NCBI GenBank assembly: GCA_948144175.1
Contig: CANXME010000520.1
Span: forward strand, 930,001-994,000
Reading direction: 5' to 3'
Source: Closterium sp. NIES-65
Taxonomy: Eukaryota > Streptophyta > Zygnematophyceae > Desmidiales > Closteriaceae
Length of the DNA: 64,000 bases
Position numbers and translations under genes: made by a program. The notes beneath the pieces were generated by a model that had not been told where the DNA came from, did no database searches, and worked only from the letters and a program-made list of their open reading frames with translations. Positions 38,426 through 44,400 of this stretch are shown here, one piece after another. Each line of letters starts with the position of its first letter. Position 1 is the stretch's first letter.

Positions 38426-41400
38426 ATGAACGGCGGAGATTGCGCCATCCGGGCCGTGTGGGTGGTGGCTCACCACCAAGCGTACGGCGGGTCGGCGGCT
38501 GCTCCCTCCGACCCAACCTGCAGCATCCTCTTCTCACGGTGAGTGACTCGCGACTCGCCACGTGGCAGGAATTTGAACACGTGGTGCTTAGTGTTGGAGG
38601 TTCCAGCTTCAGCATATCAGTCTTCTCGTGGAGTGGTCGCTTCTTTCGTCACGCCCGTTTTTTTAAGGCATGAGCACGTGTCAGGCATGAGCACGTGTCA
38701 GGCCGTGGGCTGGCCCGGACCATTGCTCATGTCTGGTTTACGTCACCACCTGCAATCCCTCTTCTTCTCAACTGCCCATCTGCTGACGTGGTTCCGTCTT
38801 TTCACGTGTGACGTGTCGATCCACAGCCGATTCCCGACAGTGGACCGCCAGTGGCGCCTGCTCTGTGCCACGTCACCTGCTTCTGCAGAACATGCTACAG
38901 TAAGTGGTACGGTGGCTCCTGAGGTGACTTTTCAGCCGAACCGAATCAGTCACCACAGTGGCTGTACAGTAGAACATGCATATCATTACAAACTAGTACT
39001 ACAGCTTCTCTACAGTAAGCAACAACACTGTGTTTGCAGTACACGATATAGTCGCAACAGTGAGGCACGCTGGCATATTTGGCCCAGCCACTGGGAATTC
39101 TCTTTTGAGGCGCCTCCAAAGTATTCACAGCCACTGGGGATTCTCTCGAATAGTCCTTGCATTGATTAAGGTCTGGTACAAAGGAAGATGCAAACACATG
39201 CTAAACAAACTAGCAAACCGGTATCCTACCTACCACAAATCTCCCACCCACTCCGCCCCCTTCTGTCCGACCCTACTGGTCGAACGGGGGCTCAATCAGC
39301 TGGTGCAGCTGCCCCTCACTAAGAGGGGCGAAGGGTCCCTGCATGCCTAGCTCGTCCGCGGCCAGGGCCTCATTGGTCCCCTGACTAAGAGGGGATTCTC
39401 TCTGTGTGTGCCTTTTCACATTCACCTCTCTTAACATTCTTCCTGCTTCTGCTTTGTGACATGGAGAGTAGCAATGCAACCGTATGAAAAATGTCACCAC
39501 AAGTTGACTTCTGGGTTCAGTGCGAAGTCAGCATGGAACAGCATTCGAACAGCATTCAAACAGCATTAGAACAATATAAAAGTCACAAGCACGCCATGCT
39601 GCTGTGAGAGAGTGCGCCAGTTTTCAACTGCATGTAAACACGGCACCTTCCTTGCTACTCCGGTGCTTCGTCTGTTGCTGATATAATACATAGCAGTACC
39701 ACAGGTTGCAGCACTAACAGTGCTGGTGTGGCTAGGCTCCCTCCCCCCGCTTCCCTCCCCCCCCCCCCCCCTCCCCTTCCCGTCTCTCCGTCCCTACACT
39801 CTCCTAACCCCCCAACCTTCAAATTCCCACCACCAGGGCTCATCTAACCCCCCAACCTTCAAATTCCCGCCACCAGGGCTCATCTAACCCCCCAACCTTC
39901 AAATTCCCACCACCAGGGCTCATCTAACCCCCCAACCTTCAAATTCCCACCACCAGGGCTCATCTAACCCCCCAACCTTCAAATTCCCACCACCAGGGCT
40001 CATCTAACCCCCCAACCTTCAAATTCCCACCACCAGGGCTCATCTAACCCCCCAACCTTCAAATTCCCACCACCAGGGCTCATCTAACCCCCCAACCTTC
40101 AAATTCCCACCACCAGGGCTCATCTAACCCCCCAACCTTCAAATTCCCACCACCAGGGCTCATCTAACCCCCCAACCTTCAAATTCCCACCACCAGGGCT
40201 CATCTAACCCCCCAACCTTCAAATTCCCACCACCAGGGCTCATCTAACCCCCCAACCTTCAAATTCCCACCACCAGGGCTCATCTAACCCCCCAACCTTC
40301 AAATTCCCACCACCAGGGCTCATCTAACCCCCCAACCTTCAAATTCCCACCACCAGGGTTCATCTAACCCCCCAACCTTCAAATTCCCACCACCAGGGCT
40401 CATCTAACCCCCCAACCTTCAAATTCCCACCACCAGGGCTCATCTAACCCCCCAACCTTCAAATCCCCACCACCAGGGCTCATCTAACCCCCCAACCTTC
40501 AAATCCCCACCACCAGGGCTCATCTAACCCCCCAACCTGCAAATCCCCACCACCAGGGCTCATCTAACCCCCCAACCTGCAAATCCCCACCACCAGGGCT
40601 CATCTAACCCCCCAACCTTCAAATCCCCACCACCAGGGCTCATCTAACCCCCCAACGTGCACATCCCCACCACCAGGGCTCATCTAACCCCCCAACGTGC
40701 ACATCCCCACCACCAGGGCTCATCTAACCCCCCAACGTGCACATCCCCACCACCAGGGCTCATCTAACCCCCCAACCTGCAAATCCCCACCACCAGGGCT
40801 CATCTAACCCCCCAACGTGCACATCCCCACCACCAGGGCTCATCTAACCCCCCAACGTGCACATCCCCACCACCAGGGCTCATCTAACCCCCCAACGTGC
40901 ACATCCCCACCACCAGGGCTCATCTAACCCCCCAACGTGCACATCCCCACCACCAGGGCTCATCTAACCCCCCAACGTGCACATCCCCACCACCAGGGCT
41001 CATCTAACCCCCCAACGTGCACATCCCCACCACCAGGGCTCATCTAACCCCCCAACGTGCACATCCCCACCACCAGGGCTCATCTAACCCCCCAACGTGC
41101 ACATCCCCACCACCAGGGCTCATCTAACCCCCCAACGTGCACATCCCCACCACCAGGGCTCATCTAACCCCCCAACGTGCACATCCCCACCACCAGGGCT
41201 CATCTAACCCCCCAACGTGCACATCCCCACCACCAGGGCTCATCTAACCCCCCAACGTGCACATCCCCACCACCAGGGCTCATCTAACCCCCCAACGTGC
41301 ACATCCCCACCACCAGGGCTCATCTAACCCCCCAACGTGCACATCCCCACCACCAGGGCTCATCTAACCCCCCAACGTGCACATCCCCACCACCAGGGCT

Positions 41401-44400
41401 CATCTAACCCCCCAACGTGCACATCCCCACCACCAGGGCTCATCTAACCCCCCAACGTGCACATCCCCACCACCAGGGCTCATCTAACCCCCCAACGTGC
41501 ACATCCCCACCACCAGGGCTCATCTAACCCCCCAACGTGCACATCCCCACCACCAGGGCTCATCTTCCGTTTCACGAGGGCAGGGCAAGCCTGGGAAGGC
41601 GCCTCCCCCGGTGACGTACCGGCCGATTCCTCTGGATGACGAGATCAGCATTGCGTTTGCACAACACATGCAGCGGTGAGATGTATGGTGATGAGAGCAG
41701 CAATAGGCGGTGTGACTGTGCTTGTTGTGAATTGCCTTCAGTACACATTGGGTGACGTATTGTGTGGCAATGAAATAAGCAATGAAATAAGCCTCCGTCC
41801 CGCTGCCCCCTGTCCCATCTCTATTCCCATATCCCTCTTCGTCATTTCCTCCGTCTCTGCTCTCTTCCCTCCCTATTTCCTTATTCTCCCATTTTCGCTC
41901 CCTCTCCTCCCCATCAGCCTCGTATCCTCTCCAGCCATTCGCAGCGCGACATCTGTCATCGGCACAGATGAGTGGCTGGACGACCCCATCATACGCCACG
42001 TCATCGGGCTGCGCCTCGTCAGCACCACTCCTATGCTCCCCGCCTCCCACTCGCGCACTCACACCAGCACCACCCAGGCTAAAGAATCGTTGAAGCCTCG
42101 GGGAAAAGGGGGCGTAGAGGGAGGGAAGGGTGGAAGAGGGGAAGAGGGAAAAGGGGGAGCAGCAGCAGCAGCAGGAGCACGTGCAGTAGAAGCGGATGAA
42201 GGGTCGCGAGGAGATGCTTTGGCTCGGAAGGCAGGGGGGAATGGCGGCAGCCCAACCGAGACAGGAACATGTGCAGCAGCAGCAACTTCAGAAGCAGATC
42301 CAACAGAATCTCGACTCGCTAAAGACACACCTGAAGAAACACCTGGAAAAACATCTGAACAAACTCCAGAGACAGTAACAGACCAGCCAGCACCCCCCGC
42401 CTCCCCCTCCACCCCCTCTTCCCCTCCCCCTCCCCCCCCACCTCCCTCCGCACCCACACTCCTCTGGCCAATCATAGTGCACCCCCATTCCAAGGCCTCC
42501 AATGTGCACGTTCTCGTGCTCCCATTGGTGGCGCCCTGCCATGTGGCAGCCTATGAGAGGCTGTGCTGGCAGCGCAACTGCGGGGGAGGGGCGGGGTTGG
42601 CGCATGGGGGAGGGGGAGGGGGAGAAAGAGGGGGGACAGCAGAGGGAGGGATGGTTGGTTCTGGGGGCGGTGGTACTGGTGCAAGTGGTGCCAGTGCATT
42701 CACGCTGTCTGCTCTGCTTGCTGACCTACCTGCTGTGACAGCGTGAGTGAGTCATTCGATTGCAACTTGCAAGTCTCTGTGCTGCTTGCTTGCAGGTTAC
42801 CCTTCCATTCCACCTTACAGTGCAAAACCTTTGTTGTCTTGCATGCCTTCTTTCTCGACTCCTCGCCCTCCCTAGCCCTCTCCCACCCCCAGAACCATAT
42901 CCCTTGCTCTGTAGACCATCGAGTCCCTCCTCTCTACTGATTCTACCGCCACCCCTACCGTGCCTTCCTCCTCTGCTCTCAACGCGTCTTCTCACCCTTG
43001 CTGCCTCCCCCTTCACTCCCGCTCTCCCTTCCCTCAGGGCCATCTCGCTTGCTCAGTGCATCGAGTCCCTCATCTCAACAGACTCATCTGCCACTCCCAC
43101 CGTGCCCCCTCGCACCTCCCCCCTCCTCTCCGCCCCCTCCGCCCCCTCCCCCACCCTCCCCTCTATCTCCCTCACTGGAGGGGGAGGAGGCGGAGGAGGA
43201 GGAGGGATGGGAGGGGTGGGTGTTGGTGTGAAGGCTGGTGCTTTAGGCACCAGCACCATTGGCAGCAGTACTAGCACTGCCGCTGCTGCTGCTGCCGCTG
43301 CTGCCGCTGCTTCTGGAGGGGAAATGGGGAGTGGAGGAGCGGGAGGAGGAAAGGGAGGGGCAGCAGCAGGAGGGAGCGGCTTAGGGTTTGGGTTGCTGGG
43401 GGCGATAGGGGCCAGTATGGGAATGTCCCGAGCCAAGACCGCCCAAACCAGCCAGCTTGGTTCGGCGCCAGGCATGGCCGGAGGTTCGGGAGGAGGGGAT
43501 GTGGGGAGGCAGGGTGGTGGGGGAGGAGGTGGGGTGATGGTGCAGCAGCTGAAAGCGGCTGAGTTGGAGGGAATCAGGCTTCTCATCTCAACGTACCTCC
43601 CCTTTGGTAAGACATGCGCTTTCTGCTGGTTCTGAATATTGAACTAATGCCATTGAAGTGAGGGTTTGGGAAGTGGAAAGGATGGTTTGGGTGGGGGGAG
43701 GGGTAGAGCTGCGGCTGAATTAGTGATGGGGAGCTATTCAGAGCAATTCTCCTTGTAAATCAGACCCCATTATCCTCCCTTTATCCACCCCCACTCTTCC
43801 TAAAACATGGCCTTGCTTGCTTGCAGGTCGACCCATCGACTTCCCCACCCCTGCCACCATCACCACCCTCCGCACCCAACCTGCGGCCTACTCCCAGGAC
43901 CTCTCACCCTACCTGCAACCGCCTTCCCCCCCCTCCGCCTCTCTCCTTTCGAGCAAAACCACCAACCAACCACACCCGAAGCAGCAGCAGCAGCAGCAGC
44001 AGGCAGGAAGAGCAGATGGAGCAGAGGCGGCACTTAAAGGCCTCGGCGGAACTTTAGGCGTGTCAGTAGACTCTCTAAGAGACACTTTTAGGCAGCCGGT
44101 GGGGAAACCAGTGCTTTACACCGGAAAACAGAGGGTATCCGTAGCAGTTGTAGAAGAAGTGAGTGTAGCTCTGTATGACAGGGAGGGGGAGGTGGCAGAT
44201 GTGGTGAGTGTAACCGGTAGGGTTACCACACGGTGGGAGGTGGAGGGTCTGCCAGATGTCACGCTCTCATTGGATGTGCCAGAAGACGCGTGTGTGGAGT
44301 CCCTTGTTGTGCATCCATGCGCTCAGGTGATGCCTTTTGCTGGTTCTCACGTCAGGTGAATTTTCAGGTGAAAATTCATGTACATTCGCAGGTAGAAATA

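Follow-up and report, generated by a model that had tools for sequence, protein, structure and literature searches.

A 44-unit minisatellite of acceptor-like units ending at exon 3 of an AP5M1-like gene in Closterium sp. NIES-65

Intron 2 of a gene resembling AP5M1, found on the forward strand of a 64,000-nucleotide stretch of contig C520 from the alga Closterium sp. NIES-65 (hereafter, the window), ends in 44 near-identical tandem copies of a 40-bp unit that resembles a complete 3′ splice site, with the predicted exon 3 acceptor lying in the last copy. The locus occurs a second time in the assembly, on contig C852, where the array of this unit is shorter. We consider it probable that the array is a boundary-crossing tandem duplication that grew into a minisatellite and has been tolerated since the exon-proximal acceptor is the one used.

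Structure of the array in two copies of the locus

Tandem Repeats Finder reported the 40-bp unit in 44.0 copies, with 99% matches and 0% indels, and a chance origin for an array of this identity and copy number is excluded. A unit-by-unit reading gave 44 complete units followed by CT, again with no indels; the first-pass annotation of this DNA had recognized the minisatellite, but had counted 43 units and placed its end at 41560 rather than 41565. Each unit comprises (i) a branch-point-like CTAAC, a putative branch point judging by its sequence; (ii) a C-rich stretch; and (iii) CACCAG followed by GGCTCAT, which would be an acceptor followed by 7 exon nucleotides if exon 3 starts at 41557. Both CTAAC and CACCAGGG are kept in all 44 units, in agreement with the earlier description of every unit as carrying CTAAC, a pyrimidine-rich block, and CACCAG before GG, and CT is present at both unit ends. 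Six unit types occur, namely 22 copies of CGTGCACATCCCC (in full, CTAACCCCCCAACGTGCACATCCCCACCACCAGGGCTCAT), 14 of CCTTCAAATTCCC, 3 of CCTTCAAATCCCC, 3 of CCTGCAAATCCCC, and 2 single-base variants, and they are ordered within the 40-bp register as had been noted, with CCTTCAAATTCCC types on the intron side, CGTGCACATCCCC types (CGTGCAC) on the exon side, and intermediates in the middle.

The gene model that places the array has eight exons, with GT-AG introns and matching phases in both locus copies, and it upholds, together with the frame test described below, the earlier proposal that the unit resembles a copied 3′ splice site whose final CAG is an in-phase acceptor for exon 3. The C-terminal part of the predicted protein resembles AP-5 complex subunit mu-1 (PDB 8yab_E, E 1.3e-15; E 1.4e-17 with a longer query) and matches the Pfam family PF00928 (Adap_comp_sub, E 2.8e-13). 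With the longer query, the exon 1-2 junction, FSRRFPTV, also weakly matches FSRRYPTV of 8yab_E; the N-terminal 376 aa alone returned nothing from PDB up to an E value of 1. Exon 3 can start at 41557 or 41584, either of which is in frame and compatible with the DNA; the unit holds 7 exon nucleotides in the first case and none in the second, and 41557 scores the higher of the two. Skipping exon 3 would shift the frame.

A repeat search of the assembly (874 Mb in 2400 contigs) returned one further locus with the 40-bp unit, on C852, whose flanks are 97-99% identical to those of the window in long matches. Its array has 19 units as against 44, so that the repeat has both the unit size (10-100 bp) and the copy-number difference, here between locus copies, of a variable number tandem repeat (VNTR). 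With the CCTTCAAATTCCC types written as a, b, and c, the intermediates as d and e, and the CGTGCAC type as f, the unit order is abaaaaaaaaaaacaa d deedfffefff ffffffffffffffff in the window and aaaaaagh deedfffefff in C852, where the additional types g and h have CTAAC altered to CTAGC and CTAAT. Common to both is the 11-unit core deedfffefff, and of the 25 units by which the arrays differ, the CGTGCAC block next to the exon accounts for 16, the block on the intron side for 8, and an extra d beside the core for 1. Both array ends have therefore changed. The suggested expansion from the exon side thus agrees with the 16 exon-proximal units and not with the 8 at the opposite end, while the suggestion that the upstream unit type is the older finds no support in arrays whose common part is the middle core.

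The complete open reading frame and all GT-AG borders are intact in both copies, which differ by 16 synonymous and 10 non-synonymous changes in 1027 aligned codons. These copies may be alleles or duplicated segments; both are possible because most matches to CCT genes (below) sit on two contigs, and because the Closterium peracerosum-strigosum-littorale complex, to which this alga may be close, is described as having haploid vegetative cells and widespread gene duplication (PMC10407611). An outgroup for the array was sought in eight stretches holding partial AP5M1 copies, in which similarity begins at intron 3 or exon 4, with no match to exon 3 or the array.

Predicted consequences of acceptor choice

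Joining exon 2 in silico to each of the 44 unit acceptors left the frame intact for the last unit only; the remaining 43 gave early stops (42 at codon 79 and 1 at codon 103), as did 18 of the 19 unit acceptors in C852. The AG at 41584 was the only other in-frame choice tested, and on these translations protein can be made only from the last unit or from this weak AG. The array cannot be read as coding sequence, a possibility that we rejected on the grounds that 40 bp is not a multiple of 3 and that splicing to earlier units runs into a stop. The early stops likewise remove the proposed role of the array as a store of spare acceptors at the level of splicing; a buffer may act through recombination instead, as suggested by a CCT gene in which a duplicate acceptor appears to have become the real one (below). 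Length-variable cryptic exons, also proposed earlier, are unlikely because the CCTTCAAATTCCC unit has no GT and the CGTGCAC unit only one poor GT. The gene model needs no new intron between copies, although the CGTGCAC units do hold that GT.

Acceptor strength was scored with a weight matrix derived from 21 further acceptors in the genome, which themselves score from 3.9 to 17.8. The last unit scored 7.1, the CCTTCAAATTCCC unit 12.5, and the AG at 41584 4.3; among the AGs of intron 2 that precede the array, the best scored 4.9. We propose, from the intact frames, that the last-unit acceptor is picked by pairing across the exon, and that the gene would be kept despite stronger decoys because splice sites pair in this way. 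Consistent with this, splice sites closest across the exon are described as preferred where introns are large (Carranza et al. 2022, PMC9225289), a preference that would pick the last unit here. In that study, the competing sites were alternative sites from a usage database, together with plasmid tests, unlike the natural series of more than 40 near-identical sites in this array.

The array could have formed as follows. A 40-bp segment across the intron 2/exon 3 boundary, comprising CTAAC, the pyrimidine stretch, CAG, and 7 exon nucleotides, would have been duplicated in tandem, with the breakpoint probably at the CT found on both unit ends. Slippage or unequal exchange would then have expanded it into a minisatellite of variable length. 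The acceptor of the last unit would pair with exon 3's own donor through exon definition, keeping the gene functional, while the upstream unit acceptors would be decoys whose use leads to early stops. In copy number, the array would be an extreme of a widespread process in the genome, in which exon heads and tails are duplicated into adjoining introns, mostly at offsets of 120-180 bp.

Two known cases resemble parts of this scheme. In a potato RdRp gene, one tandem duplication runs over the junction of an intron and an exon (Ma, Lan and Niu 2016, PMC4974935), and its duplicated piece has, as proposed here, a branch site, a pyrimidine tract, a 3′ splice site, and an exon head; in potato, however, a new intron arose through a cryptic donor, whereas here a 44-unit array lies within an intron already present, with no sign of a new one. 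The 24-bp exonic AGGT repeats of fission yeast that are spliced as an intron (as related in PMC4974935) are likewise short in-gene tandem units with a splice site, but there the unit is exonic and the intron runs across copies, whereas the Closterium unit is mainly intronic and has at most 7 exon bases. Boundary-crossing duplications and tandem repeats at intron ends are known, the accessible portions of PMC4974935 and PMC3887541 describing neither a 44-copy acceptor array nor exon-edge copies throughout introns; no description of multi-copy acceptor arrays or of such exon-edge copies was found in the titles and abstract openings of open-licence PMC literature, among the matches listed.

Choice among acceptors by the spliceosome is usually studied with few competing copies. 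The window copy of this gene offers 44 near-identical acceptors and the C852 copy 19, and the protein is kept only through the acceptor next to the exon (or 41584). The gene appears to be a natural experiment in splice-site choice, and it could show whether sites are paired across exons in this lineage.

As the chief alternative, the array might be an ordinary intronic minisatellite that reaches the exon, with CTAAC and CAG incidental and the acceptor either coincidental or really the AG at 41584. Minisatellites are common in the window, the AG at 41584 is in frame, and a study of plants and green algae describes a rise in tandem-repeat density toward the ends of introns (PMC3887541). Known intronic VNTR minisatellites share with the array a GC-rich unit of 10-100 bp, a variable copy number, and a position near the intron end; unlike them, however, the present unit is a full acceptor in exon register, and copied splice sites are not described in the available part of that paper. 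We regard a plain minisatellite as unlikely, given that the unit is a complete acceptor in register with its last copy in phase, that 41584 scores below the last unit, and that outright exon-head copies with acceptors occur in other genes.

A selected device, whose decoy acceptors would reduce or adjust AP5M1 expression by diverting transcripts into non-productive splicing to a degree set by array length, would fit the higher scores of the CCTTCAAATTCCC units, the early stops from 43 of the 44 units, and the length difference between copies. However, the C852 units with altered CTAAC are as expected under drift, and similar duplicates lie in unrelated housekeeping genes; we consider such a device highly improbable.

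Exon-edge copies in the introns of AP5M1 and other genes

In AP5M1 itself, a ghost copy of the end of intron 4 and the head of exon 5 lies 143 bp upstream of its real counterpart, at 74.5% identity, with its AG kept and its frame broken. Such local duplicates abound in the loci of CCT/HSP60 genes (the sampled loci being L030-L059 for CCT, and L060-L062). With lax settings, 16 of these loci gave 136 direct pairs and 1 inverted pair, overlaps being partly double-counted; once minisatellites were masked and the cut-off was tightened, 15 CCT loci (46 kb) gave 88 direct and 0 inverted pairs. The strict measure found 4 direct pairs in 26 kb of window positions 1-28000, 1 in 15.5 kb of positions 28001-46500 (the intron 4 ghost, at an offset of 140-160), and, in 13.4 kb of positions 46501-64000, 0 direct pairs and 1 inverted pair. 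The 10-kb loci L024, L025, and L022 gave 5, 5, and 2 direct pairs, with 1 inverted pair also in L022. In the 17-locus set (CCT loci plus two adaptor loci, one of which, L060, was picked because its profile matches were already repeated), after removal of those repeats from overlapping loci that the script recognized, we counted 100 direct pairs in 51 kb, and a shuffled control (one per locus) gave 0. The offsets in this set pile up at 120-180 bp (43 pairs), with a weaker second cluster at 240-300 bp (26 pairs at 240-360 bp).

The MCM family shows the same pattern, in that the locus of its best hit contains 8 direct and 0 inverted pairs. Repeated profile fragments were found in 4 of 7 MCM genes and on 3 of 11 CCT contigs, among the matches listed (41 of 86 for MCM and 47 of 93 for CCT). 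Within these same matches, the 15 MCM pairs divide into 3 upstream copies sharing the exon start, 7 downstream copies sharing the exon end, and 5 others, and the 18 pairs of MCM and CCT together divide into 5, 8, and 5, respectively. Of the 15 CCT acceptors that could be placed, 5 are spanned by an upstream copy, and in 4 more such a copy covers the exon head; of the 14 usable donors, 5 are spanned by a downstream copy (that in L045 at only 69-71% identity), and in 3 more the exon tail is covered. These counts leave out one donor that was not located (L039) and a start (L042) and an end (L054) that could not be placed. In no spanning pair at the 15 acceptors is the real acceptor the upstream member. 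Allowing a generous 4 nt around the expected position, and with some rows visibly misregistered, 9 of the 12 ghost acceptors have AG and 7 of the 11 ghost donors have GT. We rejected the idea that ghosts are targeted to splice sites; because local duplicates cover 32% of the bases of the CCT loci, splice sites do not appear to be preferred targets.

One CCT gene, present on contigs C2400 (L037) and C1640 (L038), suggests that a ghost can take over from a real splice site. In L038 the exon head is present in one additional 136-bp copy, and L037 (positions 1458-1627 against L038) matches the ghost exactly through the acceptor and first exon bases and then matches the real copy exactly, with the amino acids at the junction unchanged (GCA ACC for GCC ACA). 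L037 is best read as a 136-bp recombination deletion that placed the ghost acceptor before the exon. The converse, a recent origin of the extra copy in L038, was rejected, since the two copies are too divergent and L037 is the derived deletion. If both gene copies are expressed, ghosts could replace real splice sites over evolutionary time.

More broadly, we advance as a tentative idea, with the odds somewhat against it, that duplication acts throughout genes, at a preferred size close to that of one nucleosome repeat, and copies exon edges and splice sites into adjoining introns. Introns would become nested series of decoys, real exons would survive only by pairing across the exon, ghost-exon recombination would renew splice sites as in L037/L038, and the AP5M1 array would be the minisatellite extreme. 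The link to nucleosomes is a guess from size. If the pattern of ghosts extends genome-wide, introns would grow from pieces of neighbouring exons and exchange their splice sites through recombination, a mode of intron evolution that is rarely observed in progress.

Several points weigh against our account of the array. (i) Splice usage is read here from the genome sequence, and signal strength by itself favours the decoys, as the last unit scores below the CCTTCAAATTCCC units. (ii) With exon 3 starting at the in-frame AG at 41584, the unit would hold no exon sequence and the array would be wholly intronic. (iii) Ghosts are not clustered at splice sites, with 5 of 15 acceptors spanned against 32% of bases covered. 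(iv) At 40 bp, the unit falls well below the 120-180 bp class, and the array resembles the ghosts in kind only. (v) The AP5M1 introns contain a single ghost, a much lower number per kb than in the CCT loci, and the contrast between window and CCT loci may reflect age as well as gene content, the window being rich in transposons that are possibly young.

An assembly artefact, with the repeat number inflated or exon edges falsely duplicated, is scarcely credible: long arrays are hard to assemble and the assembly is in 2400 contigs, but ordered variants with a common 11-unit core occur on two contigs, and ghosts diverge from their exons by ~4-31% and are present in both members of several contig pairs (94-99.97% identical).

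Features of the window

Coordinates of the array, the gene, and the duplicated fragments are collected in Table 1.

Table 1. Positions of the array, the AP5M1-like gene, and local duplicates in the window
Feature	Position	Strand	Remarks
Tandem array	39804..41565	+	44 complete 40-bp units + CT
Last unit + CT	41524..41565	+	CAG 41554-41556 is the predicted exon 3 acceptor; sole unit acceptor preserving the reading frame
C/T-rich tract	39740..39803	+	Directly upstream of unit 1, outside the repeat; found in C852 too
AP5M1-like gene	38426..46108	+	8 exons, 1078 aa
AP5M1 exons	38426-38538, 38827-38899, 41557-41675, 41918-42742, 43038-43606, 43827-44326, 44609-45580, 46043-46108	+	
AP5M1 intron 2	38900..41556	+	2657 nt in window; 1659 nt in C852
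AP5M1 exon 3	41557..41675	+	119 nt; alternative in-frame start 41584
Ghost of intron 4 end + exon 5 head	42861..42964	+	
Real intron 4 end + exon 5 head	43004..43106	+	
Fragment with copies elsewhere	41926-42567		Copies in L022, L023, L026-L029
Fragment with copies elsewhere	41901-43924		Copies in L024, L025

Exon 4 of AP5M1 and neighbouring fragments recur elsewhere on C520 and C852 at ~69-86% identity. Other repeats in the gene include (i) a CAG/GCA run at 44716-44991 that encodes ~90 glutamines in exon 7, an exon that is 147 bp shorter in C852; (ii) a 24-bp in-frame tandem duplication in the last exon, at 46052-46097; and (iii) a 12-bp tandem duplication in intron 3, at 41767-41792, where C852 has 12 bp fewer.

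A perfect palindrome, TTTTGAGAATTCTCAAAA, occurs in 6 of 61 loci (L033, L034, L037, L038, L045, and L060, four of which make up two contig pairs); the window has no copy of it, even when 2 mismatches are allowed. Copia-type retrotransposon domains (gag, integrase, or reverse transcriptase) mark five stretches of the window, at 8254-11972, 13681-18579, 23534-26888, 47150-52730, and 59354-62827, and two arrays with nearly the same 20-22-bp unit (GTGTGTTGACTTGCACTG...), at 47174-48482 and 53851-54670, flank a stretch with copia-type domains.

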